Below, one piece after another: positions 673 to 44,111 of a stretch of 64,000 nt of DNA; position 1 is the first letter of the stretch; the number at the start of each line of letters is the position of its first letter. This stretch comes from Gammaproteobacteria bacterium (GTDB lineage: Bacteria > Pseudomonadota > Gammaproteobacteria > UBA4575), in contig JANQOB010000006.1 of assembly GCA_028279275.1 (NCBI GenBank), positions 1-64,000 of the forward strand, written 5' to 3'. The notes under the pieces were generated by a model, which worked only from the letters and a program-made list of their open reading frames with translations, was not told the DNA's origin and searched no databases. The translations under genes were made by a program, and so were the position numbers.

Positions 673-1188
673 TTAAATGCCAACGATACCCGTTCGCTGA
701 TTTTTTCTTTTAAGCCTATTCTTCACTAAAATACGGCGTGGCCAAGTTAATTTATCTATAAATAACTTCCCATCTAAATGATCAATTTCATGCTGTAGAC
801 AAACAGCATGCATGCCGACCAGGTTTGCTTGTATTTTATTACCAGAAATATCATGAGCGCTTATATTAATTTTTGTAGCACGAATAATGTTTGCGACGAC
901 TTCAGGAATAGATAGACAGCTTTCCTCGACTATTCCATAAGCTGATTTCGAGTGAATTACAGGGTTAATGTAAACTTTTGGTCCATATTCATCATCTGGA
1001 ACATGCACAACGGATATCCTTTTCAATACGCCTATTTGTGGAGCAGACAACCCTATTCCGCCTTGTGTGTTTATCACTTCAAATAGTTGATCCACCACAG
1101 ACTTTAAGTCATCGTCAAATACTTTTATTGGTTGAGAAATTTTCCTTAATTCTTCATCAGGATATTTAAGAATTGAAGGTCTATTCAT
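673..1188 (-). CDS. def: peptide deformylase
   Basis: 171 residues, the normal length. It removes the N-formyl group from nascent proteins. The three metal and catalytic motifs are present: GIGLSAPQIG (motif 1, GxGLAAPQ), ESCLS (motif 2, normally EGCLS, with the Cys metal ligand kept) and HEIDHLDG (motif 3, HExDH). It begins 22 nt downstream of pucC on the same strand, so it is probably the last gene of the pucBAC transcript. That is an unusual neighbour for def, which normally sits with fmt. Whether it is the cell's only deformylase or a dedicated second copy cannot be told from this window. Confidence 0.9.
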   Translation of the reverse strand: MNRPSILKYPDEELRKISQPIKVFDDDLKSVVDQLFEVINTQGGIGLSAPQIGVLKRISVVHVPDDEYGPKVYINPVIHSKSAYGIVEESCLSIPEVVANIIRATKINISAHDISGNKIQANLVGMHAVCLQHEIDHLDGKLFIDKLTWPRRILVKNRLKRKNQRTGIVGI

Positions 1189-1210: not shown

Positions 1211-2659
1211 CTATTTTGCTGATATCTGTTCGTGATGACCCACTGTCGAGTTCCATTCGTTTTGATTTTTCAACTCATTTTTTATCAAGGGTAAAATAAT
1301 CATCACTGTGGCAATCAATAAGATCACTTCAATTGCGTAGACGGAGATATAACCGTTAGCGACTTCTCCTGATGATGGTATAAACGCAGAAATATTTATT
1401 GAATTAACTAAGTCACGAATCACGCCACTCAATGCCATACCTACACCTGCTGCGGTCGCTTGAACGGCACCCCATGAGCCTAAGGCAAGACCGACTTGCT
1501 CGCGTGGCGCTCGATTCATAGTGGCAGTTAATGTGCCGTGTGCGAATAAAGCACCACCAAAGCCAATTAAAAAATTGCCAAATACAAATAACATGGGCAT
1601 CTCTAGCGGTGCTGATATGATCACGCATATAAATGCAGGGAGACCAATAATCGCACCGTTCCTTGCAACGTTGTAAGCGCTTGCACCACGTGCGATGGTC
1701 CTTGATGCATAGGCAAATCCAAGTAGGCCGCCTATAGCTAGCACCGCAGTTAATTTTGTGGTTGCACTAACACTTAACTGTAAAACATGACCGCCATAAG
1801 GTTCTAGCAAAATATCTGACATGCCAAAAGCTAAGGTCCCTAAACCAATTATGGTCAGGCGCCGGATGGTATCAGTGCCTTCACAAAATTTTTGCCATGC
1901 TTCTTTGAAACTTGGATCCACATCTGGCAACACCTTCCCACGTGAGGGGTGGCGAGTTTCTTGCTTCCACATCGCAACACAATTCAAAACTATGCTGATC
2001 AGAGCTGCAGATTGAATCACTTGCACTAATCTTCCTGGATTGAAGTTTTTCAATGCGTAACCAAAAATTAACGAACTCAAAATCATGCCCAACAAAAGCA
2101 TGACATACATGAAGCCTACAACTTTAGGATGTGATTCTTGTGGTGTTAAATCAGTAGCGAGTGCTAAGCCAGCTGTTTGAACAGTATGTACACCCGCTCC
2201 TACCAGTAAAAATGCAAGTGCAGCAGATACTTGGCCTATCCATACAGGTAAGTTTCCGGACTCACCTTTACCGGCTAAGACCAGAAGTGCAAAAGGCATC
2301 ATTGCAAACCCCGCGAATTGCAGGAGCGTTCCACGCCATATAAAAGGGACGCGCCGCCAACCAAGTGCACATTTATGATTATCGGAACGGAATCCAATCA
2401 GTGCACGAAATGGTGCGAACAGTAATGGTAGCGCAAGCATGATGGCTACAATGGATGCAGGTACAGAAAGCTCAACAATCATGACACGGTTGAGTGTGCC
2501 AACTAACAGCACCAAAGCCATGCCAACAGAAACTTGGAATAAAGAAAGCCTGAATAACTTGCTCAAAGGCAAGTCAGGAGTTGCTATATCAGCAAAAGGA
2601 AAAAACCGCGGACCTAGTGATATCCAACGATTCATAAGCTTGAAGCTTAGACGATTCAT
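1211..2659 (-). CDS. pucC: PucC-type LH2 assembly protein (BCH_MFS family)
   Basis: 482 residues with about 12 hydrophobic segments, a member of the PucC/LhaA/Bch2 branch of the major facilitator superfamily. It starts MNRLSFKLMNRW and continues LGPRFFPFADIATPDLPL, aligning without gaps to the LhaA paralogue encoded at 24095-25549; this supports the first Met as start. Internal family signatures such as [16 protein letters not shown] are present. PucC-family proteins are thought to deliver bacteriochlorophyll or shield antenna polypeptides during assembly. Its place just after pucBA identifies it as the LH2-specific member. A stem-loop at 2694-2728 separates it from pucA and probably lowers its expression relative to the antenna genes. 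Confidence 0.92.
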   Translation of the reverse strand: MNRLSFKLMNRWISLGPRFFPFADIATPDLPLSKLFRLSLFQVSVGMALVLLVGTLNRVMIVELSVPASIVAIMLALPLLFAPFRALIGFRSDNHKCALGWRRVPFIWRGTLLQFAGFAMMPFALLVLAGKGESGNLPVWIGQVSAALAFLLVGAGVHTVQTAGLALATDLTPQESHPKVVGFMYVMLLLGMILSSLIFGYALKNFNPGRLVQVIQSAALISIVLNCVAMWKQETRHPSRGKVLPDVDPSFKEAWQKFCEGTDTIRRLTIIGLGTLAFGMSDILLEPYGGHVLQLSVSATTKLTAVLAIGGLLGFAYASRTIARGASAYNVARNGAIIGLPAFICVIISAPLEMPMLFVFGNFLIGFGGALFAHGTLTATMNRAPREQVGLALGSWGAVQATAAGVGMALSGVIRDLVNSINISAFIPSSGEVANGYISVYAIEVILLIATVMIILPLIKNELKNQNEWNSTVGHHEQISAK

Positions 2660-2758: not shown

Positions 2759-2905
2759 TTAACCACCTGCGAAGAATTTTGCGACCCAAGTTGTATTATT
2801 TAGAACAGCAAAATGGATAACAAAAGATATCAGCGCTACAGCTCCTAAAAAGAGCGGTAGACCAACGGTTGGATTTACTACACACCAAATTCTACCTTGA
2901 TTCAT
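2759..2905 (-). CDS. pucA: LH2 alpha polypeptide, with Phe44-Phe45
   Basis: 48 residues, found by reading between longer genes. It begins [17 protein letters not shown], the classic LH2 alpha start (B800 is bound at the N-terminal Met region). The transmembrane helix carries His31, the Mg ligand of B850, followed by [11 protein letters not shown]. Aligned with Rhodoblastus acidophilus LH2 alpha, positions 44 and 45 are Phe-Phe. Tyr-Trp or Tyr-Tyr there donates hydrogen bonds to the B850 acetyl groups, while Phe-Leu occurs in the blue-shifted B800-820 complex. It lies 11 nt after pucB. Identification is secure; the spectral inference is tentative. Confidence 0.95.
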
Positions 2906-2916
2906 CTATCCCTCCT

Positions 2917-3078
2917 TCACCCTAGCCATGGTGTTAATGTGTAAACTAGCGCATGCGCAATTGCGGCTATCACAAAGAACACTCGAGACCCATCAATTAA
3001 ATGTTTGTGGAGCTCTTCTGATTCTTTGATCGTAAGACCGGTTGGCCACACGCGATCTGGATCATTTAAATCTGACAT
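2917..3078 (-). CDS. pucB: LH2 beta polypeptide
   Basis: 53 residues. The polar N-terminal part ends TIKESEELHKHLIDGSR, the usual LH2 beta pattern. The single membrane helix contains AHALVYTLTPWLG, whose His42 is the B850 ligand. An AGGAGG-like Shine-Dalgarno (reverse of cctcc near 3090) precedes the ATG. It is the first gene of the puc unit, with a pair of PpsR boxes about 95-135 bp upstream. Only one pucBA pair is present in this window. Confidence 0.95.
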   Translation of the reverse strand: MSDLNDPDRVWPTGLTIKESEELHKHLIDGSRVFFVIAAIAHALVYTLTPWLG

Positions 3079-3170: not shown

Positions 3171-3214
3171 TGTCAAGAAATATTGTCAATTAAAAGTGTC
3201 TAATATATTTGACA
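3171..3214. promoter_or_regulatory. paired PpsR boxes upstream of pucBA
   Basis: Box 1 at 3171-3188 is TGT-N12-TCA (one mismatch). Box 2 at 3197-3214 is TGT-N12-ACA (perfect). They are separated by 8 bp. PpsR/CrtJ binds TGT-N12-ACA cooperatively at such paired sites and represses puc expression under oxygen. Confidence 0.85.
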
Positions 3215-3326: not shown

Positions 3327-4364
3327 TTACATACTGTCGTCGAGTAGTACGTCATCCCCAAAACCTAGTGCTCTAGATAGGGGTGTAGGATGGCTCGACA
3401 ACATCGGTAACCCAAAAGAATACCTCCAATCATCTCCAGATTTGCCACTCAAGCACGGAATACCAAACATAGAAGATAAAGGTGCCGCTTTATCACTCAG
3501 TTTGGGGAAACCAAAAATAGAAAATCGAGGTCCAGTCAAGGCTGGGAAAATTCGCGCTAAGAAAGTTTGTGGCTTCTTGCTTAATTGAGGAAGACCAAAC
3601 ATGTTGGAAAGCGGCGCTGGATTATTTCTAATGTTAGAGCGCGTATGTAATGGAGAGTGAGACTCTGAAACTTGGTCACCTACAAGCAAGGGTAAACCTA
3701 TTAGACCAGACAATGGAGAGGGATTATTAGAAATCATTTTAAACCCATGTGAGCGTGTCCAACTGTCTCCTGATTTATCGCGTGACAAGGGATTGCCCAA
3801 ATATGCAGAGTAAGGCGCTGCATTGTTTGTTAAACATGACATTCCAAACATTCCAGAGAATGAGTAATCTGACCGAGCCAGCTCTCCAAATATAGGTAAA
3901 AAACTTCTTTTATTTGTGAGTGTGTTGAACCCAAAAGACAAGGATGTTGTATGACCACTCTCAACAAGAGTTGTAAGTCCTATCGCAGTAGAAAATGGAT
4001 CTGCTTGCTCACTGATTAAGTCTAGTTTTTTCTCATCTCCAATATCTTCAGAACCAGGGATAGAAACTGGATTGAAGCCATCGAGAATTCTTATCGCTTT
4101 CACAGTTTTGCCATAAGGTGTTTCGATCGCAACCATCGAATATCCACGATTTAAGTTAGATGAGTGGTCTTGCGTATCCTCTTTTAATATTGCACCAGCT
4201 TTTAGAAGATCAGATAAGTCCATACCTCCATCAGTTCCAGACTGTGGTGATGAAGTGTCTTTGATTAACGCCACTATTTTTTTATTGTAACCAACATCTA
4301 AAAGAGCTTGATACGCCCTGGTGGCTTGATCGATTGATTCATAATATCTAGTAACTACAGCCAT
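3327..4364 (-). CDS. long FGLPxLS-repeat protein with stress-protein-like N-domain
   Basis: 345 residues. Residues 1-100 (start MAVVTRYYESIDQATRAYQA) form a compact alpha/beta segment. Its pattern of an aromatic strand, an A-x-x-A-Y-x-x-L helix with VGY, and a VALIKD strand resembles the YflT/general stress protein 17M domain; this is a weak similarity. Residues about 120-340 consist of roughly 13 degenerate units built on P-x-P-L-S-x-x-F-G-L-P-x-L-S, the clearest being NPAPLSNMFGLPQLSKK and AAPLSSMFGIPCLSGK. There is no signal peptide and no membrane helix. A clear AGGAG lies 7 nt before ATG. It is preceded by a shorter paralogue 19 nt upstream and lies between the puf and puc antenna genes. 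I recognise no characterised family; a scaffold or linker role is only a hypothesis. Confidence 0.85.
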   Translation of the reverse strand: MAVVTRYYESIDQATRAYQALLDVGYNKKIVALIKDTSSPQSGTDGGMDLSDLLKAGAILKEDTQDHSSNLNRGYSMVAIETPYGKTVKAIRILDGFNPVSIPGSEDIGDEKKLDLISEQADPFSTAIGLTTLVESGHTTSLSFGFNTLTNKRSFLPIFGELARSDYSFSGMFGMSCLTNNAAPYSAYLGNPLSRDKSGDSWTRSHGFKMISNNPSPLSGLIGLPLLVGDQVSESHSPLHTRSNIRNNPAPLSNMFGLPQLSKKPQTFLARIFPALTGPRFSIFGFPKLSDKAAPLSSMFGIPCLSGKSGDDWRYSFGLPMLSSHPTPLSRALGFGDDVLLDDSM

Positions 4365-4383
4365 AATAATTCTCCTAGTAAAC

Positions 4384-4992
4384 TTATCTTATTCGTCCTG
4401 CTCCAGTTCTATCTTGCATTAAAGGTTTACCGAAAAATGCAGAATAAGGTGCAGCGTTGTTTGTTAAGCTGGGTAGGCCAAACATCCCAAAGAACGAATA
4501 ATCTGACCGGGCTAATTCTCCAAATATTGGTAAATAACTTGTTTTATTTGTGAGCGTATTAAGTCCAAAATATGAAGACATAGTATAACTGCTATCGCAG
4601 AGGGTACTCAGTCCAATTGCATCGGAAAATGGCGCAGCTTGCTCACTAATTAATTGCTCTTGATAAGAAGTGGTCTCATCCTCAGACAAAGAAATAGGAT
4701 TAAAGCGATCCAGCATTCGCATTGCTTTAGCGGTGCCACCATAAGGTGTTTCAATCGCAACCATCGAGGTTCCAGGACCCAGCTTAAAAAAATGTTTCTT
4801 TATATCATCTCTCAAACTTGTTCTGATCGGAAATATGTCCGATAAATTCAAATTTTCCGTGCTGTTAAAATCCGGATTTGATGTGTCTTTAATAAATGCA
4901 ACTAAATTTTTGTTATACCCAACATTTAGCAAAGCTTGATAGGCCCTAGTAGCTTGGTCTATCGACTCATAATATCTTCTAACAACAGCCAT
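4384..4992 (-). CDS. short paralogue of the FGLPxLS-repeat protein
   Basis: 202 residues, starting MAVVRRYYESIDQATRAYQA. The first 190 residues align closely with the downstream 345-residue protein: N-terminal domain 1-100, then SEQAAPFSDAIGLSTL, an invariant block LPIFGELARSDYSF, FGLPSLTNNAAPYSAFFG. It then ends QDRTGAGRIR where the paralogue continues with seven or more further units. It is thus a tandem duplicate with about five repeats, either shortened here or expanded in the other copy. AGGAG lies 8 nt before the ATG. The coding frame is intact and identity is highest in the repeat block, so both copies look functional. Confidence 0.85.
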   Translation of the reverse strand: MAVVRRYYESIDQATRAYQALLNVGYNKNLVAFIKDTSNPDFNSTENLNLSDIFPIRTSLRDDIKKHFFKLGPGTSMVAIETPYGGTAKAMRMLDRFNPISLSEDETTSYQEQLISEQAAPFSDAIGLSTLCDSSYTMSSYFGLNTLTNKTSYLPIFGELARSDYSFFGMFGLPSLTNNAAPYSAFFGKPLMQDRTGAGRIR

Positions 4993-5013: not shown

Positions 5014-5475
5014 TTAAATAAAATTGTTAGTAGAGTGTTCTGAATCCGCTATAGCGGCAGATTCTTTTTGTACTTTACCAGTCTCTTGCAAACGATGGTA
5101 TGCAAATACCCCTTCAATAATTCGATAGCATCCATAAAAAAAGAAACTGATAAATAGCATATGCAATATAAACGGTACTGCGGTTAACCAGAATTCACCA
5201 TCTAAATCAAAATCCTTTAATATATTTGCCAACATGAGCAGTGGAAATAAAGGTAATGAAATCGCTGCAAATTTACTCATTCTATAACGGACAAGTATGA
5301 GCATTCCGGCAAGTATAATTGGTATTAAATAGCTTATATCAAGGCGAGAAAGTTTTATAAAAGCCAGTACAATTAAAAGGGTTAATAATGATGTGATGTT
5401 CGTTAGCACTTTTACTCCAGTCAACATGGATCGTTTCGCTTCATCAAGTGTTTGAATCTGATTTGTTATCAACAT
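5014..5475 (-). CDS. four-helix membrane protein of unknown function
   Basis: 153 residues from the ATG at 5475, chosen because GAGGAGGG lies 6 nt before it; the same frame is open further upstream but would run into idi. Four hydrophobic segments lie near residues 30-43, 48-60, 70-85 and 100-120, with polar ends. The N-terminus MLITNQIQTLDEAKRSML and the C-terminal tail are soluble. It lies 16 nt after idi and 21 nt before the repeat-protein pair, all on one strand, so it probably belongs to the same transcript. I do not recognise the family. Confidence 0.75.
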   Translation of the reverse strand: MLITNQIQTLDEAKRSMLTGVKVLTNITSLLTLLIVLAFIKLSRLDISYLIPIILAGMLILVRYRMSKFAAISLPLFPLLMLANILKDFDLDGEFWLTAVPFILHMLFISFFFYGCYRIIEGVFAYHRLQETGKVQKESAAIADSEHSTNNFI

Positions 5476-5491: not shown

Positions 5492-6094
5492 TCAACACAC
5501 ACCCACGGCTTTACTGGAACTATTTTCATCTTTGTACATATTAAACATGTCAATATTTTTTAAATGCTCCCACTCCATTAAAAACCATGGCGTGAATTGG
5601 GTCCGATCATTCACGATCTTTTGATCTATCTCGTTATATTTAACCCATTCAATCGTTTCAATTTCGTTTTTATTTATTTGAAATTTTGTTTTGTTGTCAA
5701 TAAAACCAACAAATACAGCACAAAGTTCATTCTCAGCAGCCGTTTGGTCAAATGAAGCGGTGTAATCAAATTTATAAATAAAATCTAAATGAGCATCTAT
5801 TCCCAACTCATCATTCAATCTGCGATGTGCTGCTTCTAAATAAGTTTCGCCTTTTCTAGGATGGCTGCAACAACTATTAGACCAAAAACATGGCCATAGT
5901 TGTTTGTCTTTACAACGCTTTTGTAAAAGCACTTCTCCATCAAAAGAAACAATGAACACAGAAAATGCGCGATGCATCACCCCTTTCCCGGCATGAACAT
6001 CATATTTATTACTATATCCTAAGACATTGTCGTACTTATCGACACGAATAAGTAATTCATCGTCGAACGACACTACTTTATGACATGATTCCAT
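5492..6094 (-). CDS. idi: isopentenyl-diphosphate delta-isomerase, type I
   Basis: 200 residues, Nudix-fold type I enzyme. It interconverts isopentenyl and dimethylallyl diphosphate, feeding carotenoid and bacteriochlorophyll phytyl synthesis. SNSCCSHP contains the catalytic Cys (family motif TNTCCSHP), and HRRLNDELGID is the Nudix-type helix with acidic ligands. It is 132 nt downstream of pufA, behind a stem-loop. An idi gene inside photosynthesis clusters is common. It has no strong Shine-Dalgarno. Confidence 0.93.
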   Translation of the reverse strand: MESCHKVVSFDDELLIRVDKYDNVLGYSNKYDVHAGKGVMHRAFSVFIVSFDGEVLLQKRCKDKQLWPCFWSNSCCSHPRKGETYLEAAHRRLNDELGIDAHLDFIYKFDYTASFDQTAAENELCAVFVGFIDNKTKFQINKNEIETIEWVKYNEIDQKIVNDRTQFTPWFLMEWEHLKNIDMFNMYKDENSSSKAVGVC

Positions 6095-6226: not shown

Positions 6227-6421
6227 CTAGACAACACGCTTATGAGAAAGTGATGTTGTTTGTGAGTTAGAAGCTGTAGATTGTGCAGCAACAGGATCGA
6301 TCCAGTTATATTTAGCTGAGCTCAACAAAATAAAATGAATCAATAAAGCCAACACAAACAAAAATGCAAACATGGCAACAAGTGCCCTTCTTGGATCAAA
6401 AAGCATCCAAATTCTATACAT
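6227..6421 (-). CDS. pufA: LH1 alpha polypeptide
   Basis: 64 residues, starting [16 protein letters not shown], the standard LH1 alpha N-terminus. The helix [17 protein letters not shown] carries the bacteriochlorophyll-binding His and the downstream Trp. A C-terminal tail of about 20 polar residues follows. AAAGGAG lies 6 nt before the ATG. It lies downstream of pufC, not upstream of pufL as in most purple bacteria. Confidence 0.95.
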
Positions 6422-6504
6422 TTTGTTCTCCTTTATTATTGATTAAAACCATGTATTAAAATAGTTATTTAAAATTATTTTTTACATGAATTTATAGGTT
6501 AAAT

Positions 6505-6648
6505 TTAAAACCAGGGACGCCAAGTCCACGCTAAAATATGAGCCACAATGGCAATAGCGGTAAACATAGCGAAACTCCTAACAAAAATGGAGTGAAACTC
6601 CCTAGCTTCCCTATCTGTTAGTCCCGAAAGACTATTATCTTCACTCAT
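6505..6648 (-). CDS. pufB: LH1 beta polypeptide
   Basis: 47 residues, read from the intergenic DNA. It begins [20 protein letters not shown], the typical LH1 beta N-terminus. The helix has [12 protein letters not shown], where His37 is the B875 ligand and the W-x-W-R-P-W end is conserved. AGGAG lies just upstream of the ATG. It is separated from pufC by about 150 bp containing two hairpins. Confidence 0.95.
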
Positions 6649-6693
6649 AAAGTTCTCCTAAGTTTGTTAACGTTAACTAACTAGCGTAGATAA

Positions 6694-6751
6694 AATAAAT
6701 TCTGTGATGAATTTATTCTAACAATGCTATAAATGCTCTTATCAGAGCATT
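6694..6751 (-). other. two consecutive hairpins between pufC and pufB
   Basis: Stem A pairs AATAAATTC (6694-6702) with GAATTTATT (6709-6717) around a 6-nt loop. Stem B pairs AATGCTC (6732-6738) with GAGCATT (6745-6751), also with a 6-nt loop. Neither has a T tract. They sit 47-104 nt after the pufC stop, where RNA processing could uncouple pufBA abundance from pufLMC. A further palindromic stretch, GTTAACGTTAAC, lies between stem A and pufB. Confidence 0.6.
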
Positions 6752-6797
6752 ATTCACAATATTGAGAACCGTCAATATTGATGAATTCTATTTCCAC

Positions 6798-7829
6798 TTA
6801 CTCCGTGCCTGATTTATCACCCGATAAACTTGGGTAACTAGAAAGCATACTTACACCCTGCAACGGTTTATTCAGACCGCGATGGCAGGTATTACAATTA
6901 ACTTTTAGTGGGTCTCCTAATACCCCTTTACTTGTAGCAGGCAAAATGTCTGCGATTGAATTGATATACTCGTCATTAATTTCACGTACATGTCTAATAG
7001 CATGCCAGGCATTAGTACGTGCAGCGGGGCTTTGATCCCAAGCAAAAAACGATCGCGAGTTATGGCAATGCGTACAATTCACACCTAATGAATCAGATAT
7101 GTGCATCATCAAACCGTAGGTGGCTTCCGTTTGCACGATGCTGGGTCCTGGTTTTCCGGTAGGTAAGGTGGTTTTGGCTACTACTTCAATTTCATTAACA
7201 TTATTTAAATAAGTCGTTAATGGGTCATATGGCAACGATGTATATGCGACGGTGGCAGATACCGTATTTTGTCCTGTGCTTTTTAACGCGCTAGGATGAG
7301 CAGGTCCCGGATCAGTGCTCCATGCTGCAGTGGGAAGAGGTTTTCCTCTATGACATGTATAACAAGTCACTCCCGTCTCACCCATGTGAGCTTGCCATGC
7401 TGAGTTTGCTTTCCTCGTCATCTCAATCATCTTACGAGCGACCTGCTTGGTATAGATATCTTCAGAAGCAAAATTTCCTGGGACATGGCAATAATTACAA
7501 CCTTGTTCTGGAGAAACCCACTGAGTCATTGATGCCATAAGGCGTGTGAATTCACCGATACTTAAGTCATTTAAAAGTTTTACGTTTTCATATATCTCAT
7601 CGGCTTTAGGCCCTTCAGAACTAACCGGTGGTGAAGGATCAGGTGAAATATTCTCAGCAAGGACTTTTGCTTTGGTACGAGGGTTGACAACATTTTCCAT
7701 TCCCAAGCCACGATAGCCTTGTTGTTCGGAATCAACAGGAGGTAATTCACATGCACTTACTAAAAAAATAAACAACAAACCAATAAAACGGGTAAATATT
7801 TTTTCGCAGTTTTGAATACTTGTAATCAT
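6798..7829 (-). CDS. pufC: tetraheme cytochrome c subunit of the reaction centre
   Basis: 343 residues from ATG at 7829, which overlaps the pufM stop; a GTG one codon earlier is possible. The N-terminus is hydrophobic and ends LFIFLVSACELPP, a lipobox, so it is a periplasm-facing lipoprotein. Four CxxCH heme sites are visible: CNYCH, CYTCH, CTHCH and CNTCH. The subunit re-reduces the photo-oxidised special pair. It is directly coupled to pufLM, then followed by pufBA. Confidence 0.95.
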   Translation of the reverse strand: MITSIQNCEKIFTRFIGLLFIFLVSACELPPVDSEQQGYRGLGMENVVNPRTKAKVLAENISPDPSPPVSSEGPKADEIYENVKLLNDLSIGEFTRLMASMTQWVSPEQGCNYCHVPGNFASEDIYTKQVARKMIEMTRKANSAWQAHMGETGVTCYTCHRGKPLPTAAWSTDPGPAHPSALKSTGQNTVSATVAYTSLPYDPLTTYLNNVNEIEVVAKTTLPTGKPGPSIVQTEATYGLMMHISDSLGVNCTHCHNSRSFFAWDQSPAARTNAWHAIRHVREINDEYINSIADILPATSKGVLGDPLKVNCNTCHRGLNKPLQGVSMLSSYPSLSGDKSGTE

Positions 7830-8809
7830 CACTGCTCTACTCCTTCTGTAGGTAAAGCCAGTGCAGGATCCATTGCGCCCTCAACTGGATACATAGGAGC
7901 GACACCATGTTTTACTGCCCACAAATACCAGTTATCAACAACAGTACCGGTTAGAAGAATACCGATTCCTCCTGTGATGACTGTGAGTACTGCAAACCAC
8001 CAGGCCCAGCGGTGTATTGATTCCATTGTTGCATTGAAACCCATGGTCCAACGCCAAAATATTGCAGCACGTTCTGACGCAGTGCCCCGATCAACAATTT
8101 GATCTATTTCGCGATCACCGCCAAAACGACTGACTGCTAAAATCGTTGCACCATGCATAGCAAATAACACTGCAGACCCATATAAAAACGCAATCGACAG
8201 CATATGAAACGGGTTATAAAAAAGGTTGCCATAGCGAATAGAAAAAGCAGCAGTCCAGTCTAGGTGTGGAAAAATTCCAAATGGTACGGCTTCACTCCAA
8301 CTACCCATCATGATGGGTCGAATAAATCCAAGTACAAGGTAAAGCCAAATAGCAGCCGCAAAAGCCCAGGCGATATGGGTTCCCATTCCTAATGCTTTGG
8401 CACGAAAATAAGTACGAAACCACCATAAAAGGATTGAAGCAGTTAGAAAAAATCCTGCAATTAACCACCAACCACCTTCAGCAAGTGGTGGGATACTTAA
8501 CCCATAACGTGCAGGTGGTGGTTCTAGCGCTAACCAAAAAAACTGACGAACAAATTGAATTGGATCCCAATTAACGGATGCCCACATATTCAAGCCGATG
8601 ATTTCAATTGCAACAAAACCACAGATGATCGATAGAATTCCTGTACCACCAAGATGGATTGGACCAATTTGTGCGTCACCAATTTTGCCTAACCAATAAC
8701 TAAAAGCTCCACCTCCAACTCTTGAGTAATTATCTCGACCTAGGGATACACCAGTAGGATGTGCTTCGCGTACTTGAATTCTTGTAAAGATGTTTTGATA
8801 TTCCGCCAT
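7829..8809 (-). CDS. pufM: photosynthetic reaction centre M subunit
   Basis: 326 residues, starting [18 protein letters not shown]. It has five membrane helices and the family His ligands in segments such as [25 protein letters not shown] and [11 protein letters not shown]. It forms the L-M heterodimer that binds the special pair, accessory pigments, quinones and non-heme iron. It lies 20 nt after pufL and overlaps pufC. Confidence 0.97.
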
Positions 8810-8829
8810 AACTCGTTTACCTTAAATAA

Positions 8830-9654
8830 TTAGCTCCAGACTGGTAATTCAAGCCACCAGTTCCACCACTCCGGCCAGCCTCGTGTCCAAAATGGCCCAC
8901 TTATTACAATACAAACTGCACTCCAAAAGCTCGCTGATATTGCTAAAAACAATCCAAGACGATGAATTCCAAGAGCACCTATTGAATAACCGATATCATC
9001 ACGGAAGAAAGTATTTTCATGCTCAGCGGTTTTAACTATTTCACCTTTACCAGGGTTAGTTACCGCAAGTATCAGTCCACCATGCAAAGACAATGCAAGG
9101 GCATTCGTGAAGAAAAATGTAATCGCAATCATATGTGCCGGGTTATAGTGAAAGTGCAAAAACTGATAACCCACGTTCGACACCCAATCCAAATGACTAA
9201 TAATTCCGTATGGAAACCCATGACCCCATGCCCCCATCAACATAGGACGTACTACAACCAGTGCTACATAAGCGAGTATGGCAAAACTAAATGCAAATGG
9301 AATGTGTAATCCCATCCCAAGTTTGCGAGAAATTTCTGCTTGCCGAAGTGCCCATGAGATAAATGCACCAAGCGCACAAATGGTAATTAACTGCCACAGC
9401 CCTCCTTCTTTTAATGGTGCCAAACCTAATCCATATTTAAGATCTGGCGGCGCAATATTTATTTGCCAAAGATTCCAAGTTGGGCCGATAGCAGCGCCGT
9501 AGACAATTAACAGCGTTCCCAGAGTTGCAAAAAAGATGGTCGTTACACCAAAGAAGCCTACATAAAATTGGCCTATCCAGAAATCAAATAGATCTCCACC
9601 AATCAGAGTTCCTCCTCTAACTCTGTATTTTTTTTCAAAACTTAGCATTGACAT
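8830..9654 (-). CDS. pufL: photosynthetic reaction centre L subunit
   Basis: 274 residues, starting [20 protein letters not shown], the canonical PufL N-terminus. Five membrane helices include [21 protein letters not shown] (special-pair His) and HRLGLFLA (iron-ligand region). It follows pufQ directly; pufBA are absent from their usual place before it. Confidence 0.97.
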
Positions 9655-34518: not shown

Positions 34519-35919
34519 ATTCTATCCATCTCAGAAAAATCTATCGACTCGCTTGAATCTTCAAACATTGCGGCAATCTTCTCAGGTGCTTTTGATGTCT
34601 GTTTAATTCTTAACAAGAGTGGCGTTATTGTTGACTTTGCGTTGGGCTCTGAGGAAATCCATCAGGAAATCAAAAAATCCTGGGTGAAAAAAAATTGGGT
34701 GGATACGGTTGATGCCGACAGTCGCGACAGGGTTATTGAAACATTAGCAACGGCAATTGAGTCTAAAGACCCCATTTGGCGTGAGGTCAACCATCAGTTG
34801 GATGATGGTACAGAACTACCCATTCGTTATTGTTGTATTTACTCAAAAGAGTTAAATGTACTTATTGCATTGGGACGCGACCTTCGTCAGATATCTATAT
34901 TGCAACAACAATTATTAAATGCTCAGCAAACACTTGAACAGGATTATTGGAAACTGCGACAAGTTGAGACACGTTATCGTCTAATCTTTGATATGGCTGT
35001 AGACGCCGTACTGGTTGTAGACGAACCAAGTAATATCATATTAGAAGCAAACCCTGTAGCTAATAAACTATTACTTCAAAATTCAAAAACAATTATTGGT
35101 AAAAGTTTTCCTATAGGGTTTGATAAATCAAGTATGAATAGTGTCTCCTCCTTACTCGCAGAGACACGTGTAACAGGAAAATCCAGTGCGTCAAAAATTC
35201 ACTTACTGGATAATGAACGTGAATACAAAATTTCAATTAACTTAATTCGGCAAGACAATGAGTCACGCTTTTTAATCCGTCTTTATCATGCTCATACGAA
35301 TACAACGCAAACCCATGAACCTACTGCACGGCTTAGCGAAGTTATTGAAAGTGCACCTGATGCAATAGTCATTACTGACATGCAAGGTCTAGTACAATAC
35401 GCTAACCCCTCTTTTATTAAACTATCTCAAGTAGCTTCAATCGAACAAGCAGTAAACCAGTCTATGGAAAGATGGTTGGGCAGAACAGGAGTTGATTTGA
35501 ATATTCTTATCACAAATTTACAAAATTATGGTGCAGTAAAACTTTATGCATCCAAGTTGCGTGGCGAACTCGGCGCGGTTTCAAATGTTGAAATTTCTGC
35601 AGCAGTTATAGATGAAGTAGAACCAGAATTATTTATCATCTTTATCCGTGATATTGAAAGACGTGTTAGTAGCGATGCCACGACAGTGACCAAGCTGCCA
35701 AGATCAATCGAACAAATAACCCAACAGGTTGGAAAACTACCTCTCAAAGAAATCGTTCGCGAATCATCCGACTTAATTGAAAAAACCTGCATTGAGGCGG
35801 CATTGGAGCTCACCGATGACAATCGCGCTTCCGCAGCAGAAATCCTGGGTCTAAGCCGCCAAAGCCTCTATGCCAAATTGAAAACACATGAAATTGCGGA
35901 TTTAAGCAATATTGAATAA
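34519..35919 (+). CDS. ppsR: PpsR/CrtJ repressor 1, probable ATT start
   Basis: 466 residues if translation starts at ATT 34519. No ATG or GTG precedes the conserved N-terminal domain; a TTG at 34642 would delete about 41 residues (SLESSNIAAIFSGAFDVCLI and following) that match the PpsR N-terminus. GGAGG at 34508-34512 is 6 nt from this ATT, and total length equals known PpsR (about 464). Domains: N-domain 1-130, coiled Q-linker, PAS near 145-250, PAS near 265-380, Fis-type HTH at 425-460 (NRASAAEILGLSRQSLYAKL). The redox Cys of the HTH is kept (KTCIEAALELT). Represses bch, crt and puc genes. Confidence 0.9.
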   Translation: MLSISEKSIDSLESSNIAAIFSGAFDVCLILNKSGVIVDFALGSEEIHQEIKKSWVKKNWVDTVDADSRDRVIETLATAIESKDPIWREVNHQLDDGTELPIRYCCIYSKELNVLIALGRDLRQISILQQQLLNAQQTLEQDYWKLRQVETRYRLIFDMAVDAVLVVDEPSNIILEANPVANKLLLQNSKTIIGKSFPIGFDKSSMNSVSSLLAETRVTGKSSASKIHLLDNEREYKISINLIRQDNESRFLIRLYHAHTNTTQTHEPTARLSEVIESAPDAIVITDMQGLVQYANPSFIKLSQVASIEQAVNQSMERWLGRTGVDLNILITNLQNYGAVKLYASKLRGELGAVSNVEISAAVIDEVEPELFIIFIRDIERRVSSDATTVTKLPRSIEQITQQVGKLPLKEIVRESSDLIEKTCIEAALELTDDNRASAAEILGLSRQSLYAKLKTHEIADLSNIE

Positions 35920-39875: not shown

Positions 39876-41195
39876 ATGCGATTTACACTAAACACAGCAC
39901 CCGATATTCGACTAGCTCTGGATCAGCAAGGCGTGATCACGAATATTGAACTCGCAAATGAAATTGCAACAGAGAACATCAGAGACTGGCTAGGTTCTCG
40001 TTGGTTTGAAACGGTAAGTAGGACCGAAAGAAATAAACTAGAACGATTACTTCACAAAGCTACAAACTCTCAAATTTCACATTATCAACGCGTAAATCAA
40101 AAGCTGCCAAGTGGTCTAACGATCCCAATTGAATACATGGCCGTGCGACTGGGCGAAAACACCGGTTTTATTGCAATAGGTAGAGATGTAAGAGTCGTAG
40201 CTAATTTGCAATCACGATTGTCTTCAATACAAAAATCTATCGAAAGAGATCATTGGAAGCTTAAAGAAATTGAATCTCATTATCAAAAGCTTTTTGAGTC
40301 TTCAAGTGAAGCAATGATGATCGTTGATTGTGAAACTTTTAATATATCCGAAGCAAACCCTGCGGCTATTATTGCTCTTACATTGCCTGGAGATGAGAGC
40401 AATTGGAATCTTATCCAGAATGTCATTGATGCGGATCAAAAGCTATTAAATTCCACACTTAGTCGTGCGTGCAGGACAGGAACCTCTCCTGGTGTTCTAA
40501 TTCATTTTGGAGAAGAAGAAACACCATGGTTAATTAAAGCTTCTTTAATCGACTTCAAAAAATCTGAAAAAATTCTTGTTCAACTGCAACCTATTGTCGA
40601 AGATTTTAACAATAAGCATCTCATTGAGAATTTTTCTTTATCCGATTTAATCAATCGATTACCAGATGCATTTTTGATTGTAAATCGAAATGGAAAAATC
40701 ATAGAAGCCAACTCGACATTTTATGCATTAGCAAATTTAAACTCAGATGAAGAACTATTTGACCAAAATTTATCAACTTTTATTGAGTATAAAAATAATT
40801 CTATTGAAGAATTGCTGGAAACTAAAAAATATTTAAGCAATCTCTCTTGCTATTTGAGAACATCAAAAAATTCAATGATAGAAGTTAGTATTTCAACGAT
40901 TCATATCAAAGACATTCATCATAATTGCATTGCCATAAGCATACATCCATATAAAAAAACAACCTTTGAAAGCAATCCATCTGAACTTAAAAGTTTACTA
41001 GATTCAAAAGTTGGTCTAATAGGTAAAGTATCATTCAGAAAACTAGTTAGCTCATCAATAGAACTAGTTGAAAAACACTATATTGACTCTGCCCTTGCGC
41101 TAACAAATGGCAATCGAACTGCTGCAGCTAAGATGCTCGGTTTAAGCCGGCAAAGTCTATATGTAAAACTTGCCCGCTTTAATTCGAAAACATAA
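39876..41195 (+). CDS. ppsR2: PpsR/CrtJ homologue 2, paired with bacteriophytochrome
   Basis: 439 residues. Same order as PpsR1: N-domain (DIRLALDQQGVITNIEL), linker helix (RDHWKLKEIESHYQKLFES), two PAS domains and C-terminal HTH (NRTAAAKMLGLSRQSLYVKL). The HTH-proximal redox Cys is Tyr here (EKHYIDSALAL). The N-terminus is shorter than in PpsR1 by about 25 residues and no Shine-Dalgarno precedes the ATG. It lies 39 bp before the phytochrome gene on the same strand, mirroring the ppsR2/bphP1 association of Rhodopseudomonas palustris. Confidence 0.92.
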   Translation: MRFTLNTAPDIRLALDQQGVITNIELANEIATENIRDWLGSRWFETVSRTERNKLERLLHKATNSQISHYQRVNQKLPSGLTIPIEYMAVRLGENTGFIAIGRDVRVVANLQSRLSSIQKSIERDHWKLKEIESHYQKLFESSSEAMMIVDCETFNISEANPAAIIALTLPGDESNWNLIQNVIDADQKLLNSTLSRACRTGTSPGVLIHFGEEETPWLIKASLIDFKKSEKILVQLQPIVEDFNNKHLIENFSLSDLINRLPDAFLIVNRNGKIIEANSTFYALANLNSDEELFDQNLSTFIEYKNNSIEELLETKKYLSNLSCYLRTSKNSMIEVSISTIHIKDIHHNCIAISIHPYKKTTFESNPSELKSLLDSKVGLIGKVSFRKLVSSSIELVEKHYIDSALALTNGNRTAAAKMLGLSRQSLYVKLARFNSKT

Positions 41196-41234: not shown

Positions 41235-43397
41235 ATGGTTTCCGTACTGTCTAATCAACCAGAATTTGGTAAAGCCGATTTATCAAATTGTGAATTGGAA
41301 CAAATACATCTTGCAGGCTCAATACAACCACATGGCGCACTACTTATTGTAGATGAAGGTGATTTAATAATCACTCAAGTAAGTGAGAATATTAATTCTA
41401 TTTTAGAACTCAACGAAGAACTAATAGGTAAATCACTGCATGTCGTTGACAAAATGCTCGCCGAGCAAATTGAATCACTACTCAAAGAACTGCAACATAA
41501 TTCTGTAAAGCATTTTAAATTCACTTTTTCAGATTCTAAAAAATTATTTAATAGTTTTATACATAAGTTGCCAGATAGCGGTGCTGTAATTGAATTCGAA
41601 CCGTATGTCACCGAATCTAAACTGACAACTAAACTTGAGTCTTATTTAAATGAAATAGTGTCATCTTTGACACTACAAGAGCTTAGTGATAGCTCGACAC
41701 GTATTCTTAAAGAAGTCACAGGTTATGATCGAGTAATGGTTTATCGCTTTGATGAGGATGGTCACGGAGAAGTTTTTGCCGAGAGTAAAGAACCTCAATT
41801 AGAAGCATTTTTAGGTAACCGCTACCCTGCTTCTGATATTCCACAGATCGCTCGCCGCCTATATGAAACAAACCGTATTAGGGTTCTAGTGGATGTTGAT
41901 TACGAACCTGTCTATATAAAACCTAGACTCTCTCCAATAACGGGTAATGACATCGATATGTCCTTAAGTGTCTTGAGAAGCATGTCACCGATACATATAC
42001 AGTATCTTAAAAACATGGGCGTCAGCGCGACATTAGTTATTTCTTTAATGGTCGCAGGAAAATTATGGGGACTTATATCTTGTCATCATTATTCAGCTCG
42101 CAATATCAGCTATGAATGTCGAACGGCTTCAGAACTATTAGCTGAATCCATTGCAACACGGATAGCAGCCCTTGAAGGATTTATGCAAGCTGAAGCAGAG
42201 TTATCAGTTAAAAGAATTGAAAACAGGATAGCAGAAAGTGTATTTCAAGATGGGGAATGGCGAAGTGCACTTTTTGAAAATCACTCCACAATACTGAAAC
42301 CATTTAATGCGAGTGGAGCAGCACTTATTTTAGATGGAAAAATTTCCGTAGCAGGAAACGTCCCTGGCACGGATACAATTAAAAAAATCGCACAATGGCT
42401 AGACGATTCTCAAAGTCATACGACCTATTATAGTAATCGCTTTACTTCAGAAGATGAAAAATTTTCACAATTAAAATCAGTTGCAGCAGGAATTTTAGCT
42501 ACGCCGATCACGAGATCACCCGGAGAATATTTCATTTGGTTTCGACCTGAACAAATTCAAACTGTAACCTGGGGTGGTAATCCATTTAAACCTGTTGAAG
42601 TTGGAGATGATCCACGTGACCTATCACCAAGAAGATCTTTTTCTCAATGGCACCAGGTAGTTGAAGGTACTTCAATAAATTGGTCAGCAGTAGAAATTAT
42701 GGCAGCTAAGTTGATTGGTGAATCCATCGAAGATCTAATCTATCAATTTAGGGCCGTGAGCACATTAATCGTTCAAGATCAATTTATTCAAACATGCCGT
42801 GATGTGCAACTTGCCCAGCAACCCATACTCGTTGCAAATCAAATGGGCGAGATTCTTCTTATGAATGAAGCTTTCGAAAAATTATTAAACCCCGAAAGTG
42901 CTTCTCTGAAGCATATAGAAGAGTTGCGTGTCCTATTTCATGAAAGCGATGCAGAGAATAAAGTTTTCTTTAATTTACTAAAGGAAAAAAAGAAGTGGCG
43001 TGGTGAAATAAAATTAAATATAGACTCAGAACAAGGCAATGACTTTCTTTTGCGTGCGGACCCCGTTCAAGGATATGCAGGAAAATTTATAGGTTTCGTT
43101 TTATATTTTACCAATATATCTGAACGCAAGATTATAGAATCTGCTAGAAAAGGCTTTCAGGAGAATATACTTGAAAGGCAACATAAGATAACCGCCCTGC
43201 GAGATACACAATCAGATCCAATTTATCGTGAAATAATGTCTTCAGTTGTCGTTAATGCAAGGCTTGCTGCATTGGAAATTACGGATGGGTCAAAATTGGA
43301 ATCCGTGCCTGAAATGCTGGATAAAGTTGAACAATCCGTAAACCGTACTGCTGATTTAATCGAAAGGCTTATCGATCAATATAAAGATAAAAGTTGA
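41235..43397 (+). CDS. bphP: bacteriophytochrome without a histidine kinase domain
   Basis: 720 residues. PAS with bilin-binding Cys19 in SNCELEQIHLAGSIQPHG; GAF about 140-310 with PASDIPQIARRLY near residue 200; PHY about 325-510 (FIWFRPEQIQTVTWGG, and the tongue segment DPRDLSPRRSF); a further PAS about 530-640 (PILVANQMGEILLMNEAF). The last 80 residues are helical and look like a remnant of a DHp helix, but no phospho-acceptor His and no HATPase domain are present. This matches the PAS-GAF-PHY-PAS layout of phytochromes that act by binding PpsR. Confidence 0.93.
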   Translation: MVSVLSNQPEFGKADLSNCELEQIHLAGSIQPHGALLIVDEGDLIITQVSENINSILELNEELIGKSLHVVDKMLAEQIESLLKELQHNSVKHFKFTFSDSKKLFNSFIHKLPDSGAVIEFEPYVTESKLTTKLESYLNEIVSSLTLQELSDSSTRILKEVTGYDRVMVYRFDEDGHGEVFAESKEPQLEAFLGNRYPASDIPQIARRLYETNRIRVLVDVDYEPVYIKPRLSPITGNDIDMSLSVLRSMSPIHIQYLKNMGVSATLVISLMVAGKLWGLISCHHYSARNISYECRTASELLAESIATRIAALEGFMQAEAELSVKRIENRIAESVFQDGEWRSALFENHSTILKPFNASGAALILDGKISVAGNVPGTDTIKKIAQWLDDSQSHTTYYSNRFTSEDEKFSQLKSVAAGILATPITRSPGEYFIWFRPEQIQTVTWGGNPFKPVEVGDDPRDLSPRRSFSQWHQVVEGTSINWSAVEIMAAKLIGESIEDLIYQFRAVSTLIVQDQFIQTCRDVQLAQQPILVANQMGEILLMNEAFEKLLNPESASLKHIEELRVLFHESDAENKVFFNLLKEKKKWRGEIKLNIDSEQGNDFLLRADPVQGYAGKFIGFVLYFTNISERKIIESARKGFQENILERQHKITALRDTQSDPIYREIMSSVVVNARLAALEITDGSKLESVPEMLDKVEQSVNRTADLIERLIDQYKDKS

Positions 43398-43400
43398 CAT

Positions 43401-44111
43401 TTAATCAGATCCCATTACTTCTTTAGATAAATTAATATTATATCTAAATACTCTTAATGCCTCATCGAGTATTAACTGTGTATTAACGTGTATCGCAGCA
43501 TTATCAATGGCTCCCCTGATTGTATTTTTAAATACATTCAAATCTACAATATTCGCAAATTTGTAAAAAGATAAATTATCTTTCGAGAATTCTTGTTGTT
43601 TGCTTAATATCTTCTCAATAATTTGACCACCACTGAGGTCTCCTAAATACCGTACATAGATATGCGCGATAAGAAGGCTGAACTGTTTACTTATATCAAT
43701 TTCATTCAATCTGCCTAAATATTCGTTTTTTACATTTAGCTCAGAACAATTCTCTAAATCAGGATAAGTTGATATGATTTGATCGATGTCTGTTGCAAGA
43801 GAATGAGCGCGAAACATTTCAGGATGATAAAAATCGGATAAATAAATTAAATGCCTATTTTCCTCTAGTAGCATCTCCATTTTTTCATAGATCGGCTGCA
43901 TAGATTGTAACCACAACAGATATGATTGCAGCTTCACATTACCGCGAATAATGGTTTTTATTATCCCGCTTCGCTCTGCTTCAGTGTGAATCTGTTTGGT
44001 ATGATGTTTAAGTACGCTGGATAATCCGCGATCATCAGTTAAATTGTTAACTGACGGATGAAAAGTACTAAAACCATTTATCCTATGATTTTCTTGTAAT
44101 TCTAACGCCAT
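43401..44111 (-). CDS. bphO: heme oxygenase (biliverdin-forming)
   Basis: 236 residues. Proximal His region LKHHTKQIHTEAERSGII and the distal-helix glycines YVRYLGDLSGGQII are heme oxygenase signatures. It makes biliverdin IX-alpha, the chromophore for the adjacent bacteriophytochrome, with which it is convergent. It starts 24 nt after acsF on the same strand, so it is likely cotranscribed with acsF. Confidence 0.93.
   Translation of the reverse strand: MALELQENHRINGFSTFHPSVNNLTDDRGLSSVLKHHTKQIHTEAERSGIIKTIIRGNVKLQSYLLWLQSMQPIYEKMEMLLEENRHLIYLSDFYHPEMFRAHSLATDIDQIISTYPDLENCSELNVKNEYLGRLNEIDISKQFSLLIAHIYVRYLGDLSGGQIIEKILSKQQEFSKDNLSFYKFANIVDLNVFKNTIRGAIDNAAIHVNTQLILDEALRVFRYNINLSKEVMGSD

Follow-up and report, generated by a model that had tools for sequence, protein, structure and literature searches.

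The two tandem repeat proteins encoded in the window (the whole analyzed stretch of 64,000 nucleotides from contig JANQOB010000006.1 of a gammaproteobacterium) very probably belong to an accessory family dedicated to the light-harvesting antenna LH2. This family, denoted here as REP, is real and conserved and is apparently an undescribed protein of LH2 operons. No description of the family was found in the open-access literature, a scope outside which most subscription papers lie.

The host, which has a genome of 2.7 Mb, is phototrophic and carries aerobic-type genes; the G+C content of the window is 39%. On the minus strand, 3' of pufLMC, the gene order is pufB, pufA, idi, a hydrophobic ORF, S, L, pucB, pucA, pucC, and def. 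The features of this region are listed by position.

673-1188, minus strand: def, peptide deformylase paralogue in which the catalytic motifs are present, kept beside pucC in related loci
1211-2659, minus strand: pucC, LH2 assembly factor/BCD family (PF03209, 489 bits)
2759-2905, minus strand: pucA, LH2 alpha polypeptide, family assigned from similarity to the pucA proteins of other puc loci
2917-3078, minus strand: pucB, LH2 beta polypeptide (PF00556)
3171-3188: second PpsR/CrtJ-type site, one mismatch, upstream of pucB
3197-3214, no strand assigned: PpsR/CrtJ-type palindrome TGTCTAATATATTTGACA, upstream of pucB
3327-4364, minus strand: repeat protein L, 345 aa, N-domain followed by 10 clear (about 13) repeats
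4061-4364, minus strand: N-domain of L
4384-4992, minus strand: repeat protein S, 202 aa, N-domain (residues 1 to about 103) followed by 4 clear (about 5) 16-residue repeats
4690-4992, minus strand: N-domain of S, putative alpha/beta fold of the ferredoxin-like type, remotely similar to YflT (a similarity detected in homologues but not in S or L)
5014-5475, minus strand: hydrophobic, probably membrane protein with no family match, directly 5' of S
5492-6094, minus strand: idi
6227-6421 (pufA) and 6505-6648 (pufB), minus strand: LH1 antenna genes, 3' of pufLMC

The puf genes of the window (6227-9654) appear in the order pufL-pufM-pufC-pufB-pufA, in which the antenna genes pufBA follow pufC rather than lead the series.

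The first-pass annotation had described two tandem proteins, each with an N-domain and a repeat array, between the puf and puc antenna genes. This arrangement is confirmed by the open reading frames, their coordinates, and the identity of 62% between S and L over their shared part. Matching repeats of 253 and 121 nt, with identities of 73-78%, are found in the DNA of the two genes. The pair is thus assigned to a tandem duplication on the basis of both the protein identity and the shared DNA repeats.

The consensus of the repeat, obtained from an iterated matrix, is N-P-[AT]-P-L-S-S-x-[FL]-G-[LM]-P-x-L-[ST]-[DK]. The core-to-core spacing is exactly 16 residues in 52 of the 91 cases from 18 homologues, and the period of 18 residues given previously is corrected accordingly. 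Lag 16 is among the top lags in the autocorrelation of most family members. For the window proteins alone the periodicity is weak (S, p = 0.016 with a top lag of 29 and lag 16 second; L, p = 0.09). Repeat cores were counted with the core matrix at a permissive threshold, which provided 10 clear cores for L, 4 for S, and at least 12 for the incomplete protein of genome G007; the earlier counts of about 13 and 5 are fair when degenerate units are included by eye. Exactly 7 clear repeats are present in four alphaproteobacterial proteins (G864, G914, G1029, and G887), where spacings of 24-25 residues are followed mostly by 16. Most homologues contain 3-7 clear repeats at the 16-residue spacing, without long spacers. 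Repeats of the PLS type often alternate with those of the SSFGLPLLS type.

The structure of the N-terminal part was predicted with AlphaFold from only three sequences. Residues 1-103 are folded, mostly with pLDDT values of 77-89 and with one weak loop at 39-51, in agreement with the shared domain of about 100 residues noted before. The order of secondary-structure elements in the model is E-H-E-H-H-E-H. The repeat part has no confident structure (pLDDT 31-38). A transmembrane element is absent from the model, nor was one noticed on reading the sequence, in line with the earlier claim that the proteins have no membrane helix. No family was matched when the window proteins were compared with Pfam, NCBIfam, and PDB sequences. 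Weak matches of the N-domain of homologues to YflT (PF11181) were obtained with E values of 0.0013-0.27; the best scores, 19.6 bits for the G595 protein and 19.5 bits for the G938 protein, are under the Pfam gathering cutoff of 26.2, and the Pfam search gave no YflT match for the window copies. The fold searches returned widespread alpha/beta folds and nothing distinctive; PII-like and BMC-like structures make up much of the list, with Z up to 6.9. No Foldseek match to the N-domain has an E value below 0.1.

Repeat-bearing homologues were found in 20 genomes of the Gamma- and Alphaproteobacteria. Every such protein with readable flanks sits in a puc (LH2) locus, typically in the order pucB-pucA-REP-pucC-def. 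When genome contigs were scanned, S alone detected nothing and the alignment detected only G007; no REP was found in the viral contigs, plasmids, and phages that were scanned. Within the GTDB family of the window (19 genomes), REP is present only in the window genome and in G007 (MAG IP29b_bin.141). BchH occurs in the same 2 of the 19 genomes, with an identity of 74% between the two, and three further species in the genus of the window organism lack bchH. The G007 gene has an amino-acid permease as its neighbor and lies at the end of a contig (L012 1774-4466). In this fragmented assembly no reaction-center or light-harvesting (LHC) genes, puc included, were found, and no PpsR-type site was found upstream of its REP gene.

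The link to LH2 is most clearly resolved in one order of 48 genomes, where REP is present in seven genomes and LHC genes in ten. In its member G274, identified in the class search, REP is flanked by pucA and pucC, def comes next, and the pufBA genes are on another contig. The arrangement in G274 and its relatives is either pucB-pucA-REP-pucC-def or REP-pucB-pucA-pucC-def. All six genomes in which a separate LH2 pair occurs (G274, G396, G400, G407, G408, and G409) have REP, always beside that pair. It is found in none of the three genomes with pufBA only (G406, G410, and G418) and in none of the 38 without LHC genes. In G419, of the same order, REP lies at a contig end adjoining pucC and def. 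Because the LH1-only phototrophs of this order lack REP, the family tracks LH2, and the alternative that it tracks phototrophy as such was rejected. The antenna link proposed in the first-pass annotation is therefore supported and sharpened to LH2, as opposed to LH1 or phototrophy in general.

Searches of the phylum and class added proteins from G441, G779, G864, G1102, G1114, G914, G1029, G887, G894, and G938 and a short protein from G892, all presumably alphaproteobacterial as judged from kinship and gene content. HMM annotation of these loci provided the order pucB-pucA-REP-pucC-def or near variants, with G894 and G892 divergent. REP follows pucC in G779, and two pucBA pairs flank REP in G1102 (L151) and G938 (L157). 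These genomes were found via REP, and the set says that REP implies LH2 and not that LH2 implies REP. All proteins found to combine the N-domain with repeats come from genomes that have antenna or bacteriochlorophyll genes; the refuting case named in the first-pass annotation, homologues common in non-phototrophs and unlinked to puf/puc, is thus not borne out. Elsewhere, non-phototrophs included, only bare YflT-like proteins without repeats were detected; the weak alphaproteobacterial matches in G845, G937, G1129, and G450 are of this kind. Two further matches were rejected as chance: that of G360 in the class search (E 0.002) is a frame with stops in a genome without LHC genes, and that of G1018 is a low-complexity FGMPLSGS repeat with no N-domain.

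Regulatory sites were searched as exact copies of the PpsR/CrtJ-type palindrome TGTCN10GACA, of which 25 appear in the puc loci and the window, compared with about 3 expected in shuffles. In loci where an upstream region belongs to REP itself, PpsR-type sites are found just ahead of it in G396 (L062 5199 and 5225) and G892 (L159 6725), and a site with one mismatch is located just upstream of the G400 gene (L063 6796). No PpsR-type site of their own was found for S and L in the window, and these two genes probably depend on upstream transcription. Elsewhere in the window, two PAS proteins with Fis-type C-termini (34642-35919 and 39876-41195) have, by eye, the look of PpsR paralogues; next to them lie genes for a phytochrome (41235-43397) and for a heme oxygenase-like protein (43401-44111).

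When the window is compared with the other loci, PucC is 60-71% identical and REP only 23-32%, so that REP is a fast-evolving protein. The REP and PucC distances are correlated (Mantel r 0.66, with 0 of 5000 permutations as high), a value to which shared phylogeny contributes. The PucC of the window is closest to that of the alphaproteobacterial G938 (71%), and this sequence similarity would be compatible with the puc cluster having passed from one class to the other. In both classes, LH2 loci have a conserved def gene adjoining pucC (the window, L019, L058, L060, L062, L063, L084, L150-L155, and L157), and the peptide deformylase motifs ExCLS and QHExDH are intact where checked. In the LH2 of Rhodoblastus acidophilus, B800 is ligated by the N-terminal carboxymethionine of the alpha polypeptide (PMC12817894). 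This ligation suggests the idea that def could be a dedicated enzyme for the N-terminus of LH2-alpha.

A structural precedent for the repeat tail is LH2-gamma of Rhodopseudomonas palustris, which contains 97 residues and six repeats and, on the cytoplasmic side, forms an extended ribbon around six of the nine alpha-beta pairs (PMC9618040). Each repeat ligates one extra bacteriochlorophyll (BChl) via Ser, and the subunit was reported by the authors only in Rhodopseudomonas; the LH2 of Rhodobacter sphaeroides is reported to lack a gamma subunit, and LH2 ring sizes are 7-9 (PMC9618040). The sequence of LH2-gamma (PDB 7zcu, chain S) also has a period of 16 residues. For every repeat set tried, the best of the 16 circular registers pairs SGxPLIL of gamma with FGxPxLS of REP. 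In a post hoc comparison with column permutations, the p values are 0.012 for all repeats, 0.056 for the PLS-type (A) repeats, and 0.004 for the SSFG-type (B) repeats; those with the first matrices were 0.03-0.04. Profile searches did not separate gamma from column-permuted gamma, and LH2-gamma is for that reason taken as a mechanistic analogue, with no claim of common descent. The position of the ligating Ser of gamma, directly before the conserved Gly, is occupied by Phe, Leu, Ile, or Met in nearly all REP repeats. Since this Ser aligns with Phe/Leu, pigment binding by REP is not implied; that BChl might be ligated instead by the Ser of PLS, which is strongly conserved, is speculation.

By analogy with LH2-gamma, the tail is tentatively proposed to form a ribbon on the LH2 ring, a reading in which we place slightly less than even confidence. 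S and L would be accessory subunits of the LH2 antenna, with the N-domain on the cytoplasmic face. The repeat tail, unstructured alone, would extend along the cytoplasmic rim of the ring, and each 16-residue repeat would contact one alpha-beta pair as in the ribbon of R. palustris. Such a ribbon would fasten the ring or set its size, adjust its spectrum, or carry additional pigment. In the window, the two copies, duplicated and lengthened, would jointly span one ring or continue onto a neighboring one. The 7 clear repeats of the four alphaproteobacterial proteins are within the range of ring sizes and favor the ribbon. The 10-13 repeats of L and the 12 or more of G007 argue against it, as they exceed the 7-9 subunits of a ring, and S has fewer.

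Kinship of REP with PucD/PucE of Rhodobacter capsulatus is a candidate explanation that we regard as somewhat unlikely; REP would be a variant or relative of these proteins, and thus in part a known family of LH2 subunits to which a repeat tail has been added. The pucDE genes are described as encoding LH2 subunits (PMC9603854). In genomes with a Rhodovulum-like pucA with a long C-terminus (G595, G619, G649, and G723), an N-domain protein is encoded just after pucB-pucA-pucC, where pucDE would lie, but these proteins contain only vestigial repeats such as SxxFWPTPLLS (L086, L088, L089, and L166). The likelihoods assigned to the readings overlap, because this kinship is compatible with any of the mechanisms.

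A role of REP as a factor for LH2 assembly or delivery is rather unlikely. In this reading REP would not be a stoichiometric subunit but would work with PucC for a limited time, keeping nascent alpha/beta polypeptides or pigments bound on its repeats during construction of the ring. REP usually adjoins pucC and def, and hence lies among assembly and maturation genes, and the formation of LHII in R. capsulatus requires genes 3' of pucBA (Tichy et al. 1989, as cited in PMC4949548). In the four alphaproteobacterial proteins the repeats always number 7 and their spacing hardly varies, which suggests a static architecture instead, and a catalytic or chaperone family is undetectable.

The excess of repeats in L and G007 over a 7- to 9-fold ring speaks for a multivalent linker between LH2 rings, the earlier model in which short motifs on a flexible chain cross-link rings and organize antenna domains or membrane curvature. 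The unstructured repeat part and the LH2 linkage are consistent with it, and a ring-bridging role is retained because the long window copy has 10-13 repeats. The linker model is quite unlikely: most homologues, with their few closely spaced repeats, do not have the long spacers expected of a bridge, and the profile search of all PDB chains with REP provided no match, although full-length CsoS2/EPYC1 linkers are not necessarily in the PDB. From the idea of a soluble antenna organizer in the first-pass annotation the antenna link stands; a multivalent role like that of CsoS2/EPYC1 is less likely, and the 16-residue period and the operon-linked setting are better fitted by a ribbon on a single ring. 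A general stress-type, YflT-like protein located beside puc genes by accident would account for the weak N-domain matches and for the bare YflT-like proteins of non-phototrophs, but this is very improbable and strongly disfavored by the co-occurrence, given that repeat-bearing proteins are confined to genomes with antenna or bacteriochlorophyll genes in two classes and that some REP genes have their own photosynthesis-type operator.

LH2 is a textbook antenna and is usually described as consisting of alpha and beta polypeptides only. A conserved third gene of the LH2 operon, present in two classes and without a Pfam or NCBIfam model, would represent an overlooked part of many LH2 complexes, and the ribbon architecture would be extended beyond Rhodopseudomonas, its only known source. 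REP would offer a general explanation for ring stabilization, spectral variation, or membrane packing. In its broadest form, which is possible but doubtful, REP would be a widespread LH2 subunit family whose repeat ribbon runs along the rings of many alpha- and gammaproteobacteria with a repeat number adapted to the ring, and the two copies of the window organism would be long enough to place extra pigment around the whole ring or to tie rings together.

Among known systems, LH2-gamma shares with REP the tandem 16-residue repeats, the G-x-P-L-I/L core, the association with LH2 (for REP from gene neighborhood alone), and the absence of a transmembrane helix. It differs in having no N-domain, whereas about 100 residues precede the repeats of REP; in its EYKG...KQEG repeats, compared with PLS/FG-rich repeats; and in distribution, as REP is found in many alpha- and gammaproteobacteria. 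PucD/PucE of R. capsulatus have the same position as accessory genes of the puc operon and are likewise linked to LH2. The gamma protein of R. capsulatus is about 14 kDa, and to our knowledge no repeat array has been reported for it. PucC/LhaA is encoded in the same operon as REP and is LH2-linked, but PucC is a 12-helix membrane protein and REP is predicted to be soluble. YflT (PF11181) resembles REP through the weak N-terminal similarity of homologues and a compatible alpha/beta layout; REP differs in its score below the gathering value, its repeat tail, and the lack of the Gly-rich hydrophobic middle of bare YflT-like proteins. CsoS2/EPYC1 also carry repeats on a chain without its own structure, whereas the repeats of REP are short (16 residues) and tightly packed, and their likely partner is a ring-shaped membrane antenna.
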